A stretch of 64,000 nucleotides of DNA from assembly GCA_006384855.1 (NCBI GenBank), contig VCJN01001321.1, forward strand, positions 124,001-188,000, read 5' to 3'. This DNA comes from Tetraselmis striata. Taxonomy: Eukaryota; Chlorophyta; Chlorodendrophyceae; Chlorodendrales; Chlorodendraceae. The notes below the pieces were generated by a model. It searched no databases. It was not told the DNA's origin and worked only from the letters and a program-made list of their open reading frames with translations. Below are positions 19,401 through 33,782 of the stretch, one piece after another (the stretch's first letter is position 1; each line of letters opens with the position of its first letter). The position numbers and the translations under genes are program-made.

Positions 19401-20520
19401 CAGAAGAGGCCCACCAAATATCTATCGTTAGCGCTGAAGCGCGCCGCCCCGTCTATGGCCCCTAACGTGCTATCGCACTCCTGCACCTTGGGGTAAATCG
19501 CGACGCAGAAGCAAGTCGTGGCCAGCTTAGTGGATAATGGTACCGGTCATCGATTAAACAGGTTAAAAATGTACCTAATGTATTAACATGAGTATATTTG
19601 GTATGGATCCTTAACGGTACTACACCCCTCCACATAAGTCCGGGTTTTGCATTTTCGATCGCAAAGCGCACGCATGGGCGAGGATAACGCCGGCTGCATG
19701 TGCATACATTCTAACTACAATGGGAAAAATTCGGCCGAACGCCTATTGTGCGCTTTATACCCACCCATGCGAGATCACGACCATTTGTGGGCGCCCTTTG
19801 AAAAACGCGAAATCATTGCATGATGCGTTTGCGCCGGAAAATTTTGGGTTACGCCAACCGTCCAAACCTATGGAAAAAGCGACACTCGTCGCACCAAACT
19901 CGGTGAATACGGCCCTTGGCATAAGTTGCACCCACCGTGCGTGTAGGCCACTGAAAGCATGTCGCTATAGGCACGACGTGACACCCCAACGACAAGTTGG
20001 CCACTGTGGGGAGCAGTTTTGGGGTGAAAATGCTGTTGTTTCTGTGGCGAACGCACGTAGGAGAGGCGCTCGATGGCCCCCTTGGCGTAGGGCGATGCTC
20101 TACTATGGGGGCGCGTGGTGGAATGCCAGTTGCACCGTTTCGTGGGCGGGGTGGCGCGGTAGTAGGGGCGTGGACTTTAATTAATATGAAATTCCTTTAA
20201 AAAATGCTGTGGAAAAGGGCATTTGGCTGGTAGATGTATGTATCGCTAGAAAGCGGCACATGCCAAGTGGTTGTGGTCCTTGGTCGTCCACACACATAAC
20301 GCTCTCGCACAGCCGAGTATGGGGCTTAGACACGCACTTGGCGCAAAGCCACGCGCCCGACATGGGTGGGCACATGAGGCAGTGAGGGGCCACTTGGATG
20401 ATCATATTTGGGGATTTTCCGGGCCCAACAGTAATGCAACCTATTTTGCCCCGAGGCACGCGGTGCATTGTGGTTAGGTCTAAATTAGGGTTTGGGGGCA
20501 GCAGTGGGATTGCAAGCTAA
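19401..20520. other. No recognised gene
   Basis: One plus-strand open frame of 154 codons (19,720-20,184) lacks any recognisable motif and has no splice or codon evidence in its favour. I regard this stretch as intergenic. Confidence 0.4.
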
Positions 20521-20554
20521 TATGAATGCCGGTTGGTTCATTTTGTGCCAAGTC

Positions 20555-20745
20555 GGGGAAACCAATTCCGTCCAAGCAGGGACAAATCAAAAGAGTGAAG
20601 GAAACGGGATGGTTACAAGAAGTTTGCGCCATCGGGGGCTGAAACTCTGTCCAAACTGGGACAAAAATAAGGGCGGGGGCCGTGATGGCTACAAGTAGTT
20701 TGTGCCGTCCGGGGCTGAGACTCTGTCAAAGCCGGGACAAAACAT
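20555..20745. repeat. Subterminal repeats with GGGACAAA near the left end of the element
   Basis: Three imperfect ~75-bp units, each containing (t)gtcca/tgtcaaa...gggacaaa, then g(g/a)tggctacaag(t/a)agttt and ccgggg-type words. The inverted pair tgtcc...gggaca forms short dyads. They lie just beyond the stop codon of the methyltransferase-like gene. Confidence 0.75.
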
Positions 20746-20772
20746 ATGAGCGGCGAATTTTGCGGAATTGTA

Positions 20773-23700
20773 CTACATATCATCATCTTCGATCACATAA
20801 TCCCCTCGGCGCTCTGCCGCCTCTTGCCTCTTCTTCGCTGCCGCAAGACGCTCTGAGAACTCCTCTGACACGGTCATTGGATGGGGTAGACCCGGCCACT
20901 TCTCGAAGTCACTTGGACGCAGTCTTTGAGTCTCGTCCCATGGCTTCTCTTTGAACCATGAGGTCATCCTGGACTTCATCCCAGCGATTTGCGTCTTCTG
21001 GTTGTCAATGAGGATAATCTTCAAGTTCCTGTGTGTGAACGAGTAGGTATGATCCATATGGTCCCACCACACGGAAAAGGCCGCAGCGACCTGGAAAAGG
21101 CGTGGCAAACCGCACAAGGCGTTAGTTTTTTTATGCTGATCCATTAAGACACTCACCCGGGTTGCACCCCTCACGCTCCGCGGTTGTCCCGGTTCCGGCT
21201 GTGACGTCGACGATTGTTGTCCCGTCTGTTGCCGCCATCTTAAGGTGCTTAGCGAAGAGAGCGATAGGCTTTTGGTACTTGTTCACCGTCTGTCTGTTCT
21301 CGTCCTTCAATTTCGAACTGTCTTTGAAGTGACCCAACATGATGGATGTAGAGAACCTGGAAAGGCACAACCGGCTTAGCGAGTAAATAAATACAAGCCG
21401 GCTATTTTCCACGGATCAAATCTCACCTTCGGGGATCATCGAAACGGATGTTGTCAGCTATGATGCTTGGCGGAGGCTTCCTAACGTAGAGGTAGTACTC
21501 AGCGTCGTGACGCAGAGAGCTGCCCATCTTCATCCCGCAATCCTTAGCCCAAGTCAGGACGTGATAGATGAGGTCCTCAGCTTGTTTTTGAACGGCTGTG
21601 ATTGCGGATCCAAGTTGCTGGTCCGAGAGGTGAATGAAGAAATGGCACCCATCGAGAGCAGTGTGGACGTCAGAAGATCCAGTCTGGATATTCAACTGCC
21701 TGCGCGGGGGTAAATCGGGAATGAGATAAATGAAAGCACAGTCATCTAGTACGCACCGGGGTTGTGGGGGTTGTCTTGCCTGGCGAAAGCAAACACGTCG
21801 TTGAAGTCGTCCGTACCCCACGCAGCATCCTTCGAGTCCCATGTGTGCGAACCAGCTCCGAAAAGCGCGTCGGCAATGAAGATTGTTGCCTTTTTGGCAC
21901 GAACTGCCGACATGGCGTCCGCGACGAATTGTTTTGTCGCGGGAGCCTTGAAGTTCCCCTCCACAATGCAAGTCTTGCAAAGCTCCGTGTTCAACCACAC
22001 CTTGTCATCCTTGTCGACCCCTTCTCCCTTGGGCATCACCGGAAGTTCCTCGGCCTGTGTGTATTAGAAAACAGATTCGGGTTAATAGCTCACAACGAAA
22101 ATTCAGAAGAGCATTTGTGGGTGCACAAGATCTTAGTTACCTTCATCGATATCCACAGCTCATTAGAAACATTCGGAGCGGAAACCGCGATAAGCTCCGG
22201 CGCACATGCCAGAAGAGCAAACTCTGTGAAGAAGGAGATGACTAAGTCCGGCATCTGATTCTTGATGCGATACGCCTCACTCCTGATGGTGGTGTTGGTG
22301 GCCGCGATATGCTCTCGAACCGGTAGTGGTGTGAGACAATCGGCGGATTTCATGTCCCCCCATCTGGCAGGAGGGGTCAGCAAGACCATCAACGGACCGG
22401 AGCGATGAGCACCTTTGAACAAATCCTGGAACTTTCTGGGGAAGCCTGTTGGGCCGAGGTCATCAACATTGGCTCGGAACTTGGTGATGGCGTCAAGGCG
22501 AGCGGCCGCTTGCTCATCCGACACTTTGTCTTGCACATCCCAATTCGATGATGTGGTCCGAGAGATATTTCCCCCAATTCCTGGCCGGTTCGTCCGGCGT
22601 CAGCAGTTGGATTGTCTCCATGCCCTTGGCCGTGTCAATGACATTCATGAGCTTGATGCTTGCTCGACGCAAGAGATCGCGAAACCTCCAGGTCTCAATC
22701 ATCGCGAGCCACTCCGCGTTGGTGTGCGTAACAGCCATGGGGCCATTGTCGCCGGCGTGCTTACTGTCATCCACCAGCTCGTAGAGGCTCGGGGTCACAC
22801 TGTGCTCGCCTTGGATGAGCAGTCCAACCACCAGGTACATCTGGCCCACAGGGAGATCCGCGCTGTCGCTCTGCTTGGCAAGAGACGGCTCGTCTAGCCA
22901 AGGCGCATGGGGTCCAAAGCCGACATCCTGGGTCGGAAAACAAACTTCAGTACGGAGAAAGGAATCAATGATAGTATTCCATATGATTAAGACAGTGGGG
23001 TCGGTCACAACTTACCTCCATGAGGGCGACTCGGAAGTGAGCTCTGTCTTTCCCGAAGCCGTACTTCTTGTTATCGAGGATTGTATTGATAGGCTTCCGA
23101 ATTGCTTCGTAAACCTTCCTCACTTCCTTCTGGGTGAGTTGCCTGCCGTAATTGAGACGCTCGACTCTATCGAGTTCTTGCTGGTAGTACACAAATAGGT
23201 CTCCGAGTTTGGTTCTGGCTTCGTCCCATCCTCGAACCCCGAGGTCCACATGCCGGTTTGCTTCAGAAATCTGCTCAAGGGGCTCAAAAACACTGCGCAA
23301 ATCATTTGTCAGAATCTAGCAGCATTAACAACACGATAAATTTTCATCATGTACGCAGCTCACCGTTGTGGGCGCGAGCAGAGGTCAATCAAATTTGAGA
23401 ACTCGCTGCTCTTCTCATCTTTGATACCGATCTTCTCAAGTTCAACTTGAAAAACTTCAGACTTCTTGAACTCCTTCACTACCCTGATTTGCGGAAGTGC
23501 CCTAAAGCCGGGGCGATTTGCATCATGTTCTGCATACCAGCTCTCGAAACATCTGCGAAGGTTCTGCAGAAACAGTTGCACCGATTTCAAAATTCAAAAC
23601 GATTGTACCTCGATGACAAACCGTTTCGTCCCGCTGATGACAGAACGTTTCGTCCCACTAATGACAGACCGTTTCGTCCCACTGATGACAGACCGTTTCG

Positions 23701-26700
23701 TCCCACTGATGACAGAACGTTTCGTCCCACTGATGACAAACCGTTTCGTCCCACTGATGACAGAACGTTTCGTCCCACTAATGACAGACCGTTTCGTCCC
23801 ACTGATGACAAACCCTTTCGTCCCGCTGCTGACAAACCGTTTCGTCCCACTGATGACAAACCGTTTCGTCCCACTGATGACAAACCCTCTCGTCCCGCTG
23901 ATGACACACCGTTTCGTCCCACTGATGACAGGCCGTTTCGTCCCACTGATGACAAACCCTCTCGTCCCGCTGATGACAAACCGTTTCGTCCCACTGTCAT
24001 ATTTTTAACCCGCTAACGACAGAACGACTTTTGTCACACTTTACGCCTATTTGCTGCCACGCTCTGCTAAATAGTAATCTGGGAGAAGGGGTCACTCACC
24101 AGGAGTTTGTGCATCGACGTGTCTCCCACGACGGTGTGACCCGCCTCGTGGAGCTTCATAGACATGTAGCGGCAGACTTCCGGCGAGAGGCCGATGTACA
24201 TCTTAGCCGACGTGAGGTGGATGCCTTTGTTGGCTTTGTAGATTTCCGGGTAGTTTTCTTTCACCATGCGCTTCGCCTCCCGTCTGTGGCTGCCGTCGAT
24301 GTTGGCTTGACGCGCGCCGTAGGCGCTAAGAAACTCGATGATGACGTCGATCTCTGGCTTGTAGGAACTTGAATCCGCCAACCTCGGCTTCTCCCCGCCT
24401 TCGTGTGCTGCGACTAGCTCCTTGAAGTTGGCCATGGTCAGAGCGAGGGGCTCGTACTCTTCGGAGAAACAATCGCGGTTCTTGTGGACTACTGGAAAGG
24501 ACACCGAGAAATTCTCGGCGGACAGGGAAGGATTCCTCTGAATAACAAATGCAAGAAATGGATGTCAGTAAGTTGCATTGTGTATTGATATACATGTAAC
24601 TACACATATCTGATCCGGATAGGTACAACAGGTCGCGATAGGCTTTTACTTTGTAGCTTTGCGCCACCATATTGCAGTCTTGCAGCTTTGGGGAACGGAA
24701 TTCAAATTCCGGCGGCGGAGCGACGAACTTATCGGATATGAAGCTGAAAATGTGAGGCAGCCCCGTATCCTTGTCGACGACGAGGTTGACTCTGTCGGCG
24801 TATAACGTGTTGATGTCGCCACCGTGAGATGTCTTCACCTCTGGATCAGCAATCTCGACTCTGAGGTGGCCGTAAGATATCCAGTCGACGGCACCGGTGT
24901 TGTTGAAGCCATTCAAGGCCGGCGGGACGGCCAACGTGTTGACGTATGGAAGCGCGTTCTTAAAATCCTTGTCAATGTTGGCCAAGTCATCGATGTCAAT
25001 CTGATCAGACGCGAAACCTGTCAGCGCCTGCGCCAGCACATTGCGCTCGACCAAAGTCCATGCGTAGTAAGACTGGAACCGCGGTTGGAAGGAGAGTGGC
25101 GGTTGGATCGCGTGGAGTAGCAATCTCTCAAAGCTGACATCGATCCTGAACTCCTTGTGCACTGTCAAGCGATAAGGTTCAAGAGATATCTGCGGTAACA
25201 AGCATAAGAATACTAATACTTATTGAAACACGACATTGACACGAATTCAGACATCATATAAGCTTTACTCACCTCGTAGTTTCCGGCCGAGTCCAGCTCG
25301 ACGTCCTTGATCTTTCCGATACACGCGAGAAGTGGCCCCTTCGGATCATCGAAAAAGTCCTTGCCAGTCAGCAGGCTCGCCTTGTGCAATTCGATGTACA
25401 AATAGATCTGTACCTCAGCACTTGTGTTCTTGAACCAGTGGATAGTCCAGCTCCTTGAGGTAAAGTCGCTGTAGGAGTCATTTTCTTGGGACCCGTCCCT
25501 CTCGTCAAAGAAGTCGTCGTAAGAGGCGACCGTCATCAGCTTTGTCTTCCTCTCGGGTCCAGGAGTGCCGGTGATGTCGAGAGCTTGCTTACGCTTCTCT
25601 GCCGCCCGTTGCCTCTGTTCTTCCTCTGTGCCGAAGACCTCTTCATCCGTGCACATACTGAGGAATTCAGGAACCATTCTCGGAGCCTCGGCAATAGGGG
25701 CTCGAGAACCAGAGGCTCCAGAACCAGACGCTTGCCCGGTAGTCGGCGCTGGAGTCTCGAGCTCGGCCTCTGGCTCCGGGTCAAGCCGAGTGGGCTCGGG
25801 CTCCGGCTCCGGCTCTGTTTCCGGTACTTGAGATGGGCCTTTAGACAAAGAAGAGGCTTGATTCGGGGAACCTGTAAAGAATGAGTAGAGAGTACTCAAC
25901 ACACCTACAGTGGGCGTCACGATTAACTACTGAACGGTATCGCCATACACCATCAAAGCCAAGCGTAATTTTTCTTACCTGGGGATCCCGATTTACCAGC
26001 TACTTCCGACGCGGTTGCCTGCGCCAATTTACGACCTGTTGGAACGTCAGATAACTCATTGACGAGAAAGTAATCGAAGGGAGTGAGAAGGCAGGGATTG
26101 ATACTTTCAGTCACAATTACCTGGAGTCACAATCGTCTCTGAAACCTTTTCTTTTCCCTTGGATTCCTTTGAAGCTTAAGTCGCTACTGGCTCATGTGCG
26201 CGTCCTTTCGAACCTGTCAACACACATGATTTCAAACAATGTCAATATGACACAGTGCACTCACAAAGGCAGGGATTGATACTTTCAGTCACAATTACCT
26301 GGAGTCACAATTGTCTCTGAAATCTTTTCTTTCCCCTTGGATTCCTTTGAAGCTTTAGTCGCTACTGGCTCATGTGCGCGTCCTTTCGAACCTGTCAACG
26401 CACATGATTTCAAACAATGTCAATATGACACAGTGCACTCACAAAAATCATATGATTGGAGAGGCAAGGACCTGATCGATAGTAAGCTTGCATGAGCTTT
26501 TCGTAATCCATTAGCCTTCGCGCTATCTGCATTTGAGCATCTAAGAGGACCTGGCCGCTCTTGATTCGGGCCCTCAAAAGCAAGGCGGCCGATCTTTCTC
26601 CTTGCGAGTGCGTGCCGTAAGCCGGCACCCTACCTCCTAAAAGGCTCGGTTTCCAGGGGTTACCTGATGCCGCAGCGCCGGCTCTAGCTGCAGAAGCTGA

Positions 26701-28040
26701 GGCTGCACGCTCTTCGCCGCCGGCTGCTCTGGCACAGAAGATGACGCCTTGTGTTTTCTCCCTACTAGCGCTCCGAGCGCATCGAATTCTTTTGCTTTCT
26801 CGGTAGGTTTTGATGTCCGCTTGGACCTTCGGCCTACAAATATCATATCCTGTCAGACCCTTTCGTCCCGCTGATGACAGAACGTTTCGTCCCACTGATG
26901 ACAGACCGTTTCGTCCCACTGATGACAAACCGTTTCGTCCCACTGATGACAAACCGTTTCGTCCCACTGATGACAGAACGTTTCGTCCCACTGATGACAG
27001 AACGTTTCGTCCCACTGATGACAAACCGATTCGTCCCACTGATGACAGACCGTTTCGTCCCACTGATGACAGACCGTTTCGTCCCACTGATGACAGAACG
27101 TTTCGTCCCACTGATGACAAACCGTTTCGTCCCACTGATGACAAACCGTTTCGTCCCACTGATGTAAAAACCGTTTCGTCCCACTGATGTAAAAACCGTT
27201 TCGTCCCACTGATGACAAACCGTTTCGTCCCACTGCTCACAAACCGTTTTGTCCCACTGATGACAAACCGTTTCGTCCCACTGATGACAAACCGTTTCGT
27301 CCCGCTGATGACAAACCGTGTCGTCCCGCTGATGACAAACCGTTTCGTCCCGCTGATGACAAACCGTTTCGTCCCGCTGATGACAAACCCTTTCGTCCCG
27401 CTGATGACAAACCCTTTCGTCCCACTGATGACAAACCGATTCGTCCCACTGACGACAGAACGTTTCGTCCCACTGATGACAAAACTATTTTCAATACATT
27501 ATGTACTGCGGTTTAATAATGTAATGTCTTTAAGTACTGCGCTTCACACTAATATTAAACCACTCCTTACGGCGGAGTACAGGCAGAGGTTCCCCCTGGC
27601 TGCTCTTCACCCCCACCCCCTCCCACCACCAATTAGCATCCTTACTGCTTGCCGCAGCTGCCTCGACGGGACGTAATACTACGCTGCAGGACCCTGATGC
27701 CGCTCGTCTCGTTTGGGTTTCTATTCCCACTCGTCTGCCTACACCTCGAGCGGTCCTAGATTACACCGCTTCTACAGGGAACCCTAACCGAACTCGCTAG
27801 ATCTGGCCGCATCACGCGTCGAGCAGGCAGGCGGCTACTGTACGCTGCCACTCGTCTGCCTACACCTCGAGTGGTCGTAGATTACACCGCTTCTACAGTG
27901 AACCCTAACTGAACTCGCTAGATCTGGCCGTATCACGCGTCGAGCAGGCAGGCAGCTACTGTACGCGCGCGCAACTCACCTGGGGTGGCGTCGTCCTTGT
28001 CTTCCTTGTCCTTGGCAGGCTCGTTCTTCTTCGGCGCCAT
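20773..28040 (-). CDS. Large element-encoded protein with C-terminal beta-class-like DNA methyltransferase domain
   Basis: About 15 exons; clear ones are 28,040-27,980, 26,833-26,664, 25,871-25,273, 25,189-24,627, 24,537-24,100, 23,563-23,364, 23,292-23,016, 22,928-22,141, 22,054-21,757, 21,699-21,427, 21,356-about 21,158, 21,090-20,773. The first exon gives a Lys/Glu/Asp-rich start (MAPKKNEPAKDKEDKDD). A Pro/Glu/Ser-rich linker follows and then unrecognised globular parts. The end matches the motif order of beta-class N4C/N6A DNA methyltransferases: IFIADALFGAG...WGTDDF at the motif IV place, LTWAKD...RHDAEYYLYVRKP (VI-VIII), KYQKPIAL (motif X), VDVTAGTGTTAE (motif I, AdoMet loop), then LKIILID (motif II). 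Motif IV is DALF rather than DPPY. Some junctions, notably within 22,928-22,141 and after motif I, do not join in frame, so this copy may be decaying. Introns carry two 24-bp repeat arrays. Confidence 0.65.
23612..24000. repeat. 24-bp tandem repeat array 1 (~16 copies)
   Basis: Unit GTTTCGTCCCACTGATGACA plus AACC, with C/T, A/G and A/C variants. It lies in the intron between exons 24,537-24,100 and 23,563-23,364 of the minus-strand gene. The unit carries an imperfect dyad GTTT(C)GTC...GAC(A)AAC. Confidence 0.95.
26088..26446. repeat. Tandem duplication (~178 bp) that doubles a short exon
   Basis: Two head-to-tail copies start at 26,088 and 26,266 with aaggcagggattgatacttt. On the minus strand each contains an exon-like piece GSKGRAHEPVAT(K)ASKESKGK between plausible splice sites. 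The copy nearer 26,160 is not open throughout, so only the other is likely to be used. Confidence 0.85.
26853..27488. repeat. 24-bp tandem repeat array 2 (~26 copies)
   Basis: Same unit and same physical direction as array 1. It lies in intron 1 of the minus-strand gene, whose flanking exons (ending 27,980, starting 26,833) join in phase (A/T P then GRRSKR), so the array is spliced out. Confidence 0.95.
27727..27968. repeat. Tandem duplication, ~120-bp unit
   Basis: Two copies, starting at 27,727 and 27,848 with ccactcgtctgcctacacct and ending in gagcaggcaggc(g/a)gctactgtacg. They differ at a handful of bases. They lie in intron 1 of the minus-strand gene, directly next to its first exon. 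Confidence 0.9.
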
Positions 28041-28584
28041 TCTGGCGGTAGGTAGGTTGACGCGGTAGATGAGCGGGTTTCTTGGTGGGAAGCGGTGAGG
28101 GAGAGGTGGAAATGACGTGGTTTCTGTCTGCCGCCGCTCTGACCCCTGCTGGACCAACGGCGCGCGTGCGCACACTATAGTGTACCTCGTCGTCGTCATC
28201 AGGTTCATGTATTTTGCACCGCGACGAATATAAATGGCTAACTACTGCGACTATATATTACTATTACTGGAAGATAAAATATTCCCTACTCGAGAGTCAT
28301 AACGGTACGAGAGTACAGTGGCGTGGCAATAATATTCCTTCATGGGATGATATATTCCTTGGATTGGATTCGGGTGTACTTACTAGTATAGAACTATTTC
28401 CGACATACGAAAGAAGCACGAAATAACACGGTATTTGAGTCATCAATTATTTTGACCCGTAGCTGGAAATTATGCACCATGGTCAACGGCCCGTCCGAGA
28501 ACGGTCATCGGCCGTCACTCTTCCTCACCACACATCACAGTCCTTCACCCCCCCCCCCCCCCCCACCCACTCGCCCCGCGCTGC
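28041..28584. promoter_or_regulatory. Shared region between the two divergent element genes
   Basis: The minus-strand gene starts at 28,040 and the plus-strand gene at 28,585, leaving 544 bases that must hold both 5' leaders and promoters. A C run of ~15 lies at 28,549-28,564 just before the plus start. No TATA box is evident at a conventional distance. The layout is all that supports this call. Confidence 0.45.
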
Positions 28585-31500
28585 ATGGCGGCTGTCGAAA
28601 GCATGGCCTCTTCTCCAGGATCCGGCGAGTCGGACACTACAGTTACATTACCGCTGTGTTCGTGCCGCAGCGGGTACTCGTGTGATTGCGACGCGCGTGC
28701 GAGTGATCGTAAGGAGCCTGAGAAAAGGAAGTACACGTGGGGCAAGGGCTCCGATGAGGTCGCCGAAAGCGATAATGGCAAGGTCTCGTCTCTGATCAGC
28801 AAGCGCACCTCTCGCGATTGTATCCGCCTCATGCTCGCCAAGGAGGCTAGCGAGCAGTCGCCATGCTGTTCGCGCAAGTGCGTGCACAAGCTATACACAC
28901 AGTGCGGAGAGGCCCTCGTTGATGCCGTGTTGGACCGTGCGTTGACCGTATACTCTCGCAATCAGAACCGCTCCTTTGACCGGCTCGCTCAGGTTCTCAG
29001 GGGTGGCTACGAGTCGGCATCCGACAAGTTCGATTACATGTTCGATCACGGTGGCTACTTGCGATCTTTCGATCATCGCGGCCCCATCTACACGTGTGGG
29101 CGTGCGTGGGAGGTCTTGCATCAGGTCTCGAAACACAGACGTCTCGTGATCCAGCGGCCGGTGGTGGATAACGAACCCACGTACATCAGGCAGCGCAAGC
29201 AATACGAGAGCAGACAGACCGGACCGAGGGAGCATGTGCGCATGTTTCTCGAGCACTTCTTCTCGGATGACCTCGGTCACGTCGAGATCATGCCTTTTCA
29301 TGACGGAAACAGCGAGACCTTCAAGAAGCACCTACCTCCCTGGATGACCAAGATTTGCGTCTACTACTACTACAAGTCGTGGGCCGAGGACGACAACGCC
29401 ATTCTCCGTGGTGAGGCCCATTTTGTCCCACTGATGACATACCGTTTCGTCCCGCTGACGACAGACCGTTTCGTCCCGCTGATGACAAACCGTTTCGTCC
29501 CACTGAGGACAAACCGTTTTGTCCCGCTGATGACAGACCGTTTTGTCCCACTGATGACAGAACGTTTCGTCCCACTGAGGACAAACCGTTTTGTCCCGCT
29601 GATGACATACCGTTTTGTCCCACTGATGACAGACCGTTTCGTCCCGCTAATTACATACCGTTTTTGTCCCGCTGATGACAAACCGTTTCGTCCCACTGAT
29701 GACAAACCGTTTCGTCCCACTGATGACAAACCGTTTCGTCCCACTGATGACAAACCGTTTCGTCCCGCTGATGACAAATCGTTTTGTCCCGCTGATGACA
29801 AACCGTTTTGTCCCACTGATGACAGACCGTTTCGTCCCACTGATGACATGCCGTTTTGTCCCACTGATGACAAACCGTTTCGTCCCGCTGATGACAAACC
29901 GTTTCGTCCCGCTATCGCCAGAACGTTTAGTCCCACCGACGCCCGACCGATTTCGTCCCACTGATGACAGAACGTTTCGCACCGCTCATGGCATACCGTT
30001 TCGTCCCACCGACCACAAAAGTATTTGTCCCACATAATTAGCCGATATCGTCCCCCTGCAGAGAGAACGTCTTGTCCCACTGCTGAGAGACGGTTTTGTC
30101 CCACTACTGAAATACCGTTTCGTCACACTGATGACAGATTGTTTCGCCATGCTGATTACAAAATTATTCACCAACTACCGATATAATTATTTCGACCCAC
30201 TTTAGACCGAACTTTTCTGTCTCGCAGTATGAGACCTTATTTGTATACCGACCTATCATGCCCCTGCCCCTTTGTAGATTTGGCTACCGAGAGCGAAGTG
30301 AAGCTCGCATCGTTCGACACTTTCCGCCGGACTTGGAAGGAAGACTTCCCGGATGTTACCACGCCGAAGGTGAAGCGATTCAGCCACTGTCCCATATGCG
30401 CGGCAGGCAAAGCACTCAGAGACCAAGCTCGCGAGATTTGCACAAAGGACATGACGCCAGAGGAACGTCAAGTGCACCGTCAACATCAGCAGCTGGTGAG
30501 GCGTCAGGTCAGAGCTGAGCAGAAGGTACACCTCGAGAGAGTTCGCCAGGAACGAAGGGATCTGAACAACGCCGTCTTCCAGTCGCGCCTTGGCCATGGA
30601 AACTTCTTCTTCTTCGAAATTGATAGCATGGACTCCGCGAAGACCCTGCTGCCTCACTGGGTTCGCATCCCCAAGACTGTGAAGCCCGACATGCTCCTCA
30701 AGTACCACCTCACCTGTGTGAAGTACGACGGATACCGCCCGGACGACATCTACTACTACACCAACACCATCCCCCACGATTCGTCCACGACGTGCACTCT
30801 GATATGGATCACGATCATGAAGGTGAGCTCGTTAGCCTCCCGATAGGTTCGCCGTGGTTGTCCGGTAGCCATGGACTGATGAAATCTGGTCTGCGATGCA
30901 GGAAATTCAACACCGTGGTAGAAAGATTCCGTACATCAGAATCCAGATGGACAACACCGTTAGGGAGAACAAGAATAGGAACGTGGCGGCCCTCTGCAAT
31001 TGGCTTGTGTCTATCGGCATCTGCGACGTCATTCATTTGTTCTTCTTGCCTGTCGGGCACACTCACGAACGGGTTGACCAGATCTTCAGCCGCATCAGTC
31101 TTGCGCTATCTCGCAGCTCCGCCTACACAATCGAGGCCTTTCTTGACTTGGTGGCGAAGGCATTCTCGCCCACTCCGGAGATTGCTGAGCTCTCATTCTC
31201 CCTCGACTTCTCTGAGTGGTTAAGGCCCCATTTCCAAGACCACATTCAGGACATCAGTAAGCCGCACAAATTCGAGTTCACCCGTGACGACGCCGCCGCG
31301 TCTGGCGGCTCGTTGCGCACCGCCTTGTGGTCCAACACACCGCTTTCTGAGCCCGTGCAGATCTTGAAGAGCGCGCCAACTGGGACGCCCGAGATTCGTG
31401 CGGGCCGGCCCCTTTTGTACGCTCTCTGCGACAAATAGAAGCCCGACGCGGTGAAGGTCCAGAGGTACTTGGATGATTTCAAGAAGGTCAGGTCGTACAT

Positions 31501-32549
31501 CACGGACCTGGCGGTCCAGTGGCACTTCTCCCCAGTCGAGCGCGAGAGCTGGAAGAATCTGCTCGACGACTTGGATGAGATGCAAACTGCTCCTTTGGCA
31601 GCTTTCTCCGGGTTCTGACCACAACGGAAAGAGGAAGTTGACGACTTCTTGCGCGAGCACGGGCAGACCGCGCCTGCTGAGGCACGTCACACGATGGCTA
31701 CCAACGCAGACCTCAACAATGCCAAAGCCGCTCGCGTTGAAGCCGAGGTTCGTGCTCAAGTGCTTCAAGATGACAGCGCCTTCCGGGGAGTTCACGCCGG
31801 CGCCAAGGAGAGGCTTCATGACAACACATCGCCCAGCGATGCAAAGGGCTCGAACCTCGTTGTCATCGACGTCGCCGATGTGAGTCCCATTGTTTGTCAT
31901 TTTTGTCCTTTACGGGACAAAACAATTTGGTTCTTCTACCTTGCTTGTTATTTTGTCCCAGCTGGGACAAAAATGGCGTGGCGTCTCGCTCGGGACTAAC
32001 ATAGCTCGCGGTCTTGGTCATCGTTAGGTGCATGAGGAAGACAAGTGTCCTGAAACTCTTGGTGATTGGGAGTCGAGATTCGTCATCGGGCTTGTGAAGT
32101 CGCGCGAGACTACCGAAGACACGTTGACCGTGGCCGTATACGAGCCCTTCCATGCCGATGCAAAGGGCAAACCCCTCATGCCCCTATGGTTGTACGCGCA
32201 GACAAAAGGAGGGAAGAAGCCAGTTGACACAAGCTGGGAGAAGTGCCTGACGCTTCCTTGGAAGCTTGTTGAAGCCGTCCCCCTATCGTACGCGAAGGCC
32301 ATCCACGACGCGTCGGGAAGTCGAGAGGTGTTCAACGAGGACGGCACCATGGTCAGAAAGAAGTGGTACGGTAAAAGCGTCCAAGTCGTGAAGACATATG
32401 CGCAAACTGGGTGGCAAATCAGCCAGCCACGAAATAACTGCGTCCACGTCATGTCAACCACCCCAGCGCAACGCAAACCCGGCGGAGTCGTCAAGTTTAA
32501 CGCAGCCACGAAGAAGGACTTGCTTGAGTTGGGGATGCTCAACGAATAA
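28585..32549 (+). CDS. DUF7869-type transposase-like protein of the element
   Basis: Exons: 28,585-29,411; 30,277-30,822; 30,901 to about 31,878; 32,028-32,549 (stop TAA). Exon 1 has a Ser/Cys-rich start, a Cys cluster (SPCCSRKC) and the segment YTCGRAWEVLHQVSKHRRLV, which this family carries ahead of the core. Exon 2 contains HCPICAAGK, a possible zinc-binding pair, then a coiled basic stretch and FFFFEIDSMD. Exon 3 has the diagnostic block IRIQMDNTVRENKNRNVAA, then HLFFLPVGHTHERVDQIFSR, with Asp/Asn, Glu and His/Asp residues suited to an RNase H-like metal site. The last exon ends the protein with WYGKSVQVV. Exons 1 and 2 join in phase across the repeat array (cgt g/at ttg). The open frame is interrupted in the latter part of exon 3, so this copy may be inactive. 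Assignment as transposase is inference. Confidence 0.65.
29415..30215. repeat. 24-bp tandem repeat array 3 (~23 good copies plus ~10 diverged)
   Basis: Same unit as arrays 1 and 2, with T replacing C in many copies (TTTTGTCCC). It lies in intron 1 of the plus-strand gene. Copies decay progressively to the right of about 29,960. Physical direction matches the other two arrays although the host gene is on the other strand. Confidence 0.95.
31896..31975. repeat. Two TTTTGTCCC/GGGACAAAA dyads in the last intron of the transposase-like gene
   Basis: The two dyads are ttttgtcctttacgggacaaaa and ttttgtcccagctgggacaaaa. The second is almost a perfect palindrome. Both contain the core of the 24-bp repeat. 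Confidence 0.85.
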
Positions 32550-32620
32550 ACTATCAGCAACGTCTTGTGGCTAGCCGATGGATGTAATCATCATAATAAA
32601 TATTGATTTCATTGCCTCAT

Positions 32621-32643
32621 CTTGTCCCATTTTGGACAAAATG
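32621..32643. repeat. Right-end dyad cttgtcccattttggacaaa
   Basis: A palindrome of the same kind, 70 bases after the stop codon of the plus-strand gene, forming part of the proposed right inverted end. Confidence 0.75.
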
Positions 32644-32664
32644 CTCCAAAACCAACATTGGATA

Positions 32665-33782
32665 TGCGTCGCGGCTGGCCTGCACGCTGATGAATGCTGC
32701 ACTGCACCCAAGGTCTACAAACCCAAGCTACATCACAAGTGAGTCTTAAGTACTGATAGTAGACCCGGGAACTAGGGTATAAACAAACCCTACGGTGCAA
32801 AATGAATTCCACGGTGCAAAATAGGTTAAATTATTGTTGCCCCCAAAAATCGAATTCTTGATTGAAAGATTAGTTTCGACGCAGATTTGAACAAGCAATT
32901 GCGTGGTATTTTCAAAAAGTTTTTTCTGAGCAAACCCTCAGAAGTTACAGCGTTTTAAAGCCAAGGGGGTGTTGCTGAGCGTGGCCGACATTATTGATGG
33001 CATGACAGTATCGCAACGCGACATATGTATTAGCCGCCGCCCACACGGCTGCACCCCAACCAAATGCACCCGGCGAGCCCCTCGCCAACGTGTTTCCTCA
33101 CGCGTTCATGGCCATCCCGCCGTTTGGTTGTCTATTCACGCGCGTCGGCGTGTGCGTGATACCGACCCTGGTTTTGGTGCAGTTGCATGCGACGCCCATC
33201 CACGCACCAAGTGCAGCGTGACACCCTATCTAGTCAAAGGTCTTTTAGCTTCGGTTTGAGCCACTCGTCATGCAGGTTTTATAAAACCCTCTGAGATTCA
33301 AGGGTTTCATCTCATATACCCTACGTTCAGGTACCCTAGACTTCTGAAGTCTTGAGACTGCCGAAAAGGGACCCCATACTTATGTGCAAGGGTGTAGTAC
33401 CTGGAGTCCTGGACCGCGGATGACCACGGATGGAGATGCCAGCCCTGGAGATATTACCCAGCCCGGGGGCGCCAAAAAAACCTACTCAGCCCAGGAGGTA
33501 CCAGTACCCTTTTTGTAATTCACACCATTACGCTGAACGAGCGCGGGCGGCCGCATCGCGTCACCAGCACCAGCATACCGGCAGTACCTCGTGCAGGCGG
33601 GCAGTAAGTCGACAGCGCCAGCATGCGTTGATGCTGCGTAGCGCGCTCGTGAGAAGCGAAAAGTCCGCCGACGCCCGTCTGCGTCACGCAGTCAGAAATT
33701 TCCACCCAGTCTCAGGCGGAAGTAGTCAGATAGTACGCGCTGCAACCGGGACCGTAAAGCGGGGCGTCCGGAGCGACCCGGC
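32665..33782. other. Intergenic, no recognised gene
   Basis: AT-rich near 32,800-32,950, then GC-rich. It contains the dispersed motif acccttttt-gtaattcacacc at 33,507-33,526. Short open frames here have no supporting features. Confidence 0.5.

Follow-up and report, generated by a model that had tools for sequence, protein, structure and literature searches.

A multicopy DNA transposon of Tetraselmis striata with a DUF7869 gene and a divergent gene of methyltransferase fold

As a rule, transposons are targeted by DNA methylation. Fungal transposons that carry TET/JBP genes have been linked to KDZ elements, whose target-site duplications (TSDs) measure 8 bp. The TSDs of Sola1 elements measure 4 bp, a length that other superfamilies also make. 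The closest described counterpart of the locus studied here is Sola1-1_Ec32 of Ectocarpus, in which a ParB-like/DNA methyltransferase accessory protein is encoded opposite the transposase; similar accessory proteins are cited there for green and red algal transposons, and the authors suggest that these proteins attach to the transposon encoding them and modify it (PMC12477816). Here we analyse a stretch of 64,000 nucleotides from the marine green alga Tetraselmis striata (the window; contig C1059, positions 124001 to 188000, where C labels denote contigs of the 224-Mb genome searched), which contains a transposon with two divergent genes, termed D and M.

The element is a multicopy mobile cut-and-paste DNA transposon family of about 12.4 kb in T. 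striata. Our preferred reading, to which we give a probability of about 0.5, is that D is the likely transposase and M an element-encoded DNA-binding accessory protein with a methyltransferase fold; with DALF as its motif IV, M may or may not transfer methyl groups. D would cut at the inverted ends and make the 4-bp TSDs. M, whose methyltransferase fold is C-terminal and of the N4/N6 type, would recognise the element's own DNA, possibly at three intronic arrays of a 24-bp repeat, and would label or cover that DNA so that copies stay expressed or movement is tuned.

Like Sola1-1_Ec32, the T. striata element is a large DNA transposon whose accessory gene lies on the strand opposite the transposase gene and has an N4/N6 DNA methyltransferase domain, as in the description of this class of accessory proteins. 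Sola1-1_Ec32 measures 21.5 kb with an accessory protein of 1104 aa, against 12.4 kb here, and the two elements, compared by description only, differ in that the T. striata transposase has DUF7869, the ParB-like part is a motif only and motif IV reads DALF. The 4-bp TSD agrees with that of Sola elements (4 bp for Sola2; PMC3627910). Fungal DNA transposons with TET/JBP genes (PMC12730594) likewise encode enzymes that act on the bases of DNA, but the enzyme is a different one, D has no KDZ match and the TSD is 4 bp. In giant algal viruses, Mariner elements encode a methyltransferase as well, beside transposase and endonuclease (PMC3627910), but they belong to another superfamily, reside in viral genomes and use other methyltransferase families; no endonuclease was recognised in the T. 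striata element. Retrotransposons, too, can bring their own methyltransferase, Dam-like adenine methylases in DIRS elements and DNMTs in those of dinoflagellates (PMC5890265), whereas the T. striata element is a DNA transposon and its fold is of the beta class. The original prediction had known of no description of the pairing of transposase and methyltransferase; this has to be corrected, since Sola1-1_Ec32 with its ParB-like/methyltransferase protein and the methyltransferases of other mobile elements are known (PMC12477816, PMC3627910, PMC5890265). The pairing is thus not new in kind, and the element is a variant of a known theme. No description of a DUF7869 transposon with such a gene, of the altered motif IV or of the intronic 24-bp arrays was found in open-licence papers; pmid 21507349 and pmid 40345196, which PMC12477816 cites for the green and red algal cases, may describe just such elements. 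The literature search found no paper for the term 'DUF7869'.

Ends, copies and mobility of the element

The element as a whole has the following features (window coordinates).

20427-32838, no strand: whole element, 12,412 bp, flanked by the 4-bp TSD GCCC (20423-20426 and 32839-32842)
20427-20452, plus strand: left terminal inverted repeat (TIR) AACAGTAATGCAACCTATTTTGCCCC, from copy comparison and exact end pattern
32813-32838, minus strand: right TIR AACAATAATTTAACCTATTTTGCACC, with 22 of 26 positions as in the left repeat
Subterminal repeats of the element: TTTGTCCC
28041-28584, no strand: shared intergenic region between the start codons of D and M in the gene models, putative two-way promoter

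Two divergent intron-containing genes between imperfect inverted ends had been predicted, and this was borne out: the TIRs are about 26 bp long, and in the window copy 22 of 26 positions are identical between the ends. The ends themselves, earlier placed at 20521 and 32664, had to be moved. In a DNA search with the left end region, the left ends of the other 39 scored regions (best 40 of 1606) map to window positions 20423-20427, and one 80% identical relic also starts at 20427; in the corresponding search with the right end region, the right ends of the other 39 (best 40 of 833) map to 32838-32848. The scored copies are young, with 97-99% identity at their ends.

The window copy and ten copies fetched whole were compared (n = 11). 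The left end AACAGTAATGYAACCT and the outward right end AACARTAATTTAAC are common to all of them, and an exact 4-bp TSD flanks eight (the exceptions are C1441, C914 and C2669); the ends lie at 20427 and 32838. Eight copies measure 12.2-12.6 kb; those on C126, C2384 and C914 measure 9.8-10.6 kb and have parts missing. Genome-wide, the exact left end pattern occurred 133 times and the right one 210 times, against 0 for the reversed controls; among the matches listed, compared on contigs no further than C1399, 26 of 61 left ends had a right end in the correct orientation within 16 kb, at 6.6-13.9 kb. Uninterrupted empty sites were found for four of the eleven copies (C126, C464, C2428 and C1441), with the joined flanks matched across the junction at 91-98%; the search covered the best 40 of 4756 candidates, and the other seven copies may have such sites as well. 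At C1441, where no TSD was seen, the empty site falls short of the joined flanks by about 4 bases.

Both genes travel together. Every one of the 11 copies has exons 2-4 of D and all four methyltransferase exons of M, and D exon 1 is whole in eight (absent or partial in C2384, C126 and C914). For at least 54 of the best 150 of 548 DUF7869 matches in the genome, an N6_N4_Mtase match in the same divergent arrangement lay at a distance of 6.5-13.2 kb (3-16 kb allowed), and 40 of these 54 pairs are spaced 9.3-10.6 kb; the count is a lower bound, as the methyltransferase list, too, comprised only the best 150 (of 259), F2 (a second repeat family, see below) and unrelated matches included. The original prediction of a transposon with both genes stands: the same ends and both genes recur, parts of both genes are carried by every copy examined, and neither an absence of such copies nor unrelated distributions of the two genes was seen.

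An integrated virus of the polinton-like type is a very improbable alternative. Viruses of this type do insert into the genomes of Tetraselmis, and DNA methyltransferase genes are named in the legend of a figure on integrated viral elements (PMC10120064), but only two genes were recognised in the 12.4 kb (no profile search for capsid or polymerase was made), and short TIRs, 4-bp TSDs and a DUF7869 gene likewise speak against a virus. Alignments of D and M run against viral contigs gave 36 and 140 pattern matches and no confirmed relative, in a collection from which records near the host genome were possibly left out.

Some loci depart from the common arrangement. On C2683, the left part of the element survives as a decayed relic, about 79% identical and reaching up to 40974; a young copy abuts it, having inserted directly beside the relic's own terminus. 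At C67:75130-81136, methyltransferase and DUF7869 parts are on the same strand, the sole non-divergent pair within 16 kb among the matches listed. The JGI gene model P0047 (TSEL_005106) fuses DUF7869 and methyltransferase parts and is probably a gene-prediction artefact or a rearranged copy.

Gene D and its DUF7869 domain

Gene D was modelled with four exons.

28585-29410, plus strand: exon 1
30278-30822, plus strand: exon 2, contains IDSMD
30902-31879, plus strand: exon 3, with MDNTVRENKN and VGHTHERVDQ, DUF7869; stops at 31436 and 31616 in the window copy
32028-32549, plus strand: exon 4, including the stop codon

The protein of 956-957 aa is open in six of the eleven copies. The earlier suggestion that the DUF7869 gene encodes a transposase is supported as likely: a profile check by Pfam hmmscan matched D with PF25273 (E 5e-44, 150.5 bits, cut-off 26), and D is strongly conserved, with a nonsynonymous/synonymous ratio of 0.22-0.25 among copies (0.23 in the pairwise version). 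D is up to 98-99% identical to T. striata gene models (JGI Tetstr1). Outside Tetraselmis, relatives were found in the liverwort Riccia sorocarpa (E 6e-27) and in one Symbiodinium protein (E 1e-10), and the blocks (I/V)D-(S/G)-MD, DN-x-VRENKN and (H/R)TH-x-x-(V/L)DQ are common to the proteins of all three. The shared Asp blocks are as expected of a DDE/D core, a fold that D may thus have. Gene D is most likely a transposase that would cut at the approximately 26-bp inverted ends and make the 4-bp TSDs.

The best 150 of the 548 DUF7869 matches in the genome all score 121-135 bits, and no second, more distant DUF7869 family was seen among them. Membership of the KDZ group was considered and rejected: beyond DUF7869, the only profile matches of D were single sub-threshold ones to unrelated families (E 0.11 and 0.32), and the TSD is 4 bp.

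Gene M and its methyltransferase fold

The model of gene M spans 28040 to 20773 on the minus strand and has fourteen exons, of which the N-terminal ones are uncertain; the border at 21754 was modelled as GC-AG.

27980-28040, minus strand: exon 1, start codon at 28040
26299-26391, minus strand: small repeated exon, copy 1
26121-26213, minus strand: small repeated exon, copy 2, with an in-frame stop in the window copy
25979-26035, minus strand: exon GRKLAQ
25273-25871, minus strand: exon with acidic PEPE repeat
24606-25189, minus strand: exon ISLEPY
24100-24535, minus strand: exon with ParB-like motif NIDGSHRRE (24277-24303), motif only, no profile match
23364-23563, minus strand: exon NLRR
23016-23292, minus strand: exon VFEP
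22141-22927, minus strand: exon DVGF-ISMK, frameshift near 22549 in the window copy
21755-22054, minus strand: exon with methyltransferase motif IV ADALF (21854-21874)
21427-21695, minus strand: exon with motif VIII-like EYYLYVRKPP
21179-21356, minus strand: exon carrying both motif X, KYQKP (21266-21280), and motif I, VTAGTGTT (21182-21205); the window copy has lost the splice donor at 21178
20773-21090, minus strand: last exon, motif II-like ILIDNQ and C-terminus

The window copy is decayed, with the two stops in D and, in M, the stop, the frameshift and the lost donor listed above. The SDQQL exon of M occurs in only one of 41 JGI M-type models (P0063) and is taken as real because the metagenomic protein P0091 has the same segment. 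A 178-bp tandem duplication (26088-26445) holds the duplicated small exon, and a 121-bp duplication (27727-27966) lies just downstream of exon 1, within intron 1 of M.

That M ends in beta-class methyltransferase motifs, as had been predicted, was confirmed: the C-terminal part matched PF01555 N6_N4_Mtase above the cut-off (30.5 bits, E 4e-7, in one search and 27.6 bits in another; cut-off 26.7), and motifs VIII, X, I and II are present. The order IV, VIII, X, I, II is that of the beta class. Two proteins scored below the cut-off, the single JGI model P0051 with 23.6 bits and the relative P0091 with 20.8 bits. The CcrM-type profile NF050803 matched P0050 and P0051 at E 3e-4 and 5e-4 (about 19 bits, cut-off 830), and phrog_67 matched the long M model (E 2e-8). 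The stretch from motif X to motif I aligns with CcrM and other beta-class adenine methyltransferases (PDB 6pbd, 1g60 and 1eg2), although these matches are weak (E 0.39 for the M alignment against 6pbd and 0.81 against 1g60; 7e-5 for the F2 relative against 6pbd).

F2 is a second multicopy family of T. striata with a related methyltransferase gene (L041:3600-9300, C2208:349100-354800), whose copies are 85-100% identical to a 901-bp query among the best 40 of 83 candidates. Gene D exons had no match in 24 kb around one F2 copy, and no F2 transposase was found among five open frames scanned against Pfam, the other frames having been inspected by eye only. F2 has the ParB-like motif VGNHRRAAS, with a weak phrog_1033 ParB match (E 0.22) and no Pfam match.

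Selection on M was assessed by plain counting, with neither a tree nor a test of significance. Gapped codons and those with stops were dropped from both counts and, in the relic/variant count, also codons with fewer than 5 usable copies; the PEPE-repeat exon, represented by only 2 copies in the pairwise count (ratio 1.39), was left out of the relic/variant count. The nonsynonymous/synonymous ratio of M was 0.52 for variants in one copy and 0.69 for shared variants, and for the methyltransferase exons alone it was 0.46 for variants in one copy. Against the older relic it was 0.47 for M and for the methyltransferase exons alike; the pairwise ratios were 0.63 and 0.80, respectively. M is constrained, less than D. 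More variation among copies and weaker constraint than in D would suit a captured passenger gene without a role in transposition; we regard this as unlikely, because the ratio against the relic lies below 1, F2 carries a related gene in the same genome and a comparable gene is described for an Ectocarpus transposon. Within the same copies, synonymous divergence in M (0.037) was about twice that in D (0.016), which suggests recombination or gene conversion between the element halves.

Several results weigh against our reading of D and M. A PDB sequence search with gene D gave no match. The motif IV stretch of M reads IADALFGAG...TWD in 11 of 11 copies and departs from the canonical (D/N/S)PP(Y/F/W). 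The shared-variant ratio of the methyltransferase exons is 1.02 (36 nonsynonymous, 10 synonymous), and recent constraint on this part of M is not clear. The ParB-like part of M comes down to the single motif NIDGSHRRE: no ParB match to M was found in Pfam, PHROGs or PDB sequences, comparison with the F2 counterpart gave no significant match, and none of the 4 matches of a genome search with ParB_N (PF02195) lies in gene M. A PDB search with the upstream alignment of M likewise gave no match. The 4 ParB_N matches are taken, from G+C and open frames, to lie on bacterial contigs. The contigs C2280, C935, C1010, C185 and C2009 (L031-L036), on which ParB_N or methyltransferase matches lie, have a G+C of 56-65% and read like bacterial sequence; they are probably contamination of the assembly.

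Motif IV had been passed over in the original prediction; it is present but altered (ADALF). The older relic, about 79% identical, also has ADALF, and 26 of the 41 M-type gene models (P0050-P0090) have ADALF, one has TDALF and 14 have neither these nor the canonical motif. The corresponding motif is ADANYG in P0091 (33% identity to M) and ADSNYG in F2, where HMMER aligns the stretch, at a low score, with DPPY of CcrM and RsrI; the pattern D-x-x-(Y/F)-G is common to M and these two relatives. Since the M copies, the relic, P0091 and F2 share a non-proline motif, the alteration is a feature of the clade and not damage.

What the alteration would mean for catalysis can be put in two ways, both sharper forms of our reading. 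M could be an active methyltransferase acting on the DNA of the element's copies, the label protecting them or controlling excision. Conservation of motifs X, I, II and VIII and of the Asp, the aromatic residue and the Gly of motif IV fits such an enzyme, and the pattern shared with two relatives points to conservation, not decay; DALF in place of the canonical motif in all eleven copies, and the 27 ADALF or TDALF gene models beside 14 others without the canonical motif, make it rather unlikely. Alternatively, M could be a catalytically dead DNA binder of methyltransferase fold, such as a regulator or an architectural partner of the transposase, since the prolines of motif IV are lost while the cofactor-binding motif GTGTT is kept, and the relatives show the same loss (DSNY and DANY, with CcrM DPPY aligned opposite DSNY). 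This proposal, which we hold tentatively and above that of an active enzyme, has to reckon with the retained Asp and aromatic residue of motif IV and with an intact cofactor motif I, needless for a pure binder. With DALF where CcrM and RsrI have DPPY, an active enzyme cannot be assumed; catalysis by M appears doubtful, and the earlier idea that M would mark its copies by methylation is unproved.

Three further methyltransferase frames in the genome (L037, L038 and L039, on C1597 and C803) have motif IV DLPYG; in L038 and L039 the neighbouring open frame resembles a tyrosine recombinase, and these two loci are possibly polinton-like-virus or Crypton-type elements.

Intronic repeat arrays and the biology of the element

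Three introns of the element contain arrays of a 24-bp repeat, all in one orientation.

23612-23996, plus strand: intronic 24-bp repeat array, 16 units
26857-27483, plus strand: intronic 24-bp repeat array, 26 units
29421-30136, plus strand: 24-bp repeat array in intron 1 of gene D, about 30 units

Allowing up to 4 mismatches, each of the 11 copies contains 34-64 units, and none were found in the approximately 2.0-2.2 kb flanks of each copy; two shortened copies lack the third array. The genome contains 2710 exact matches to the unit and 0 to the reversed control. Of the 100 places listed, 95 lie no more than 13 kb from a listed end of the element; the other five are at C30:88074-88362. Outside the arrays, the sequence TT(T/C)GTCCC, which forms part of the unit, has 7 occurrences within the element, and the other 51.6 kb of the window have 5. 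The methyltransferase gene region of F2 also has arrays, of a different 25-bp unit; on reverse-complement self-comparison two 25-bp F2 variants match at 22 of 25 and 16 of 25 positions, and the 24-bp unit at 12 of 24. We hypothesise that M or D may bind the 24-bp arrays.

A wider and decidedly speculative proposal, which we consider unlikely as it stands, is that algal transposons have a self-recognition module. It would consist of a methyltransferase-fold DNA binder of a distinct clade, with a non-proline motif IV (D-A-L-F, D-A-N-Y or D-S-N-Y), that would read intronic 24-25-bp arrays in at least two repeat families (one with DUF7869 and one in which DUF7869 was not found), by an unusual chemistry or by base-reading without methylation.

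The T. striata genome was made from long reads. Tetraselmis is unmentioned in the main text of PMC12695648, on eukaryotic N6-methyladenine. Elements with methyltransferase-fold proteins of their own raise the question whether base marks or base-reading proteins serve to escape silencing or to control movement, and with young, numerous copies in a culturable alga this question is testable. The altered motif IV, found in three separate sequences of one clade, may represent either a new chemistry or a methyltransferase turned reader.

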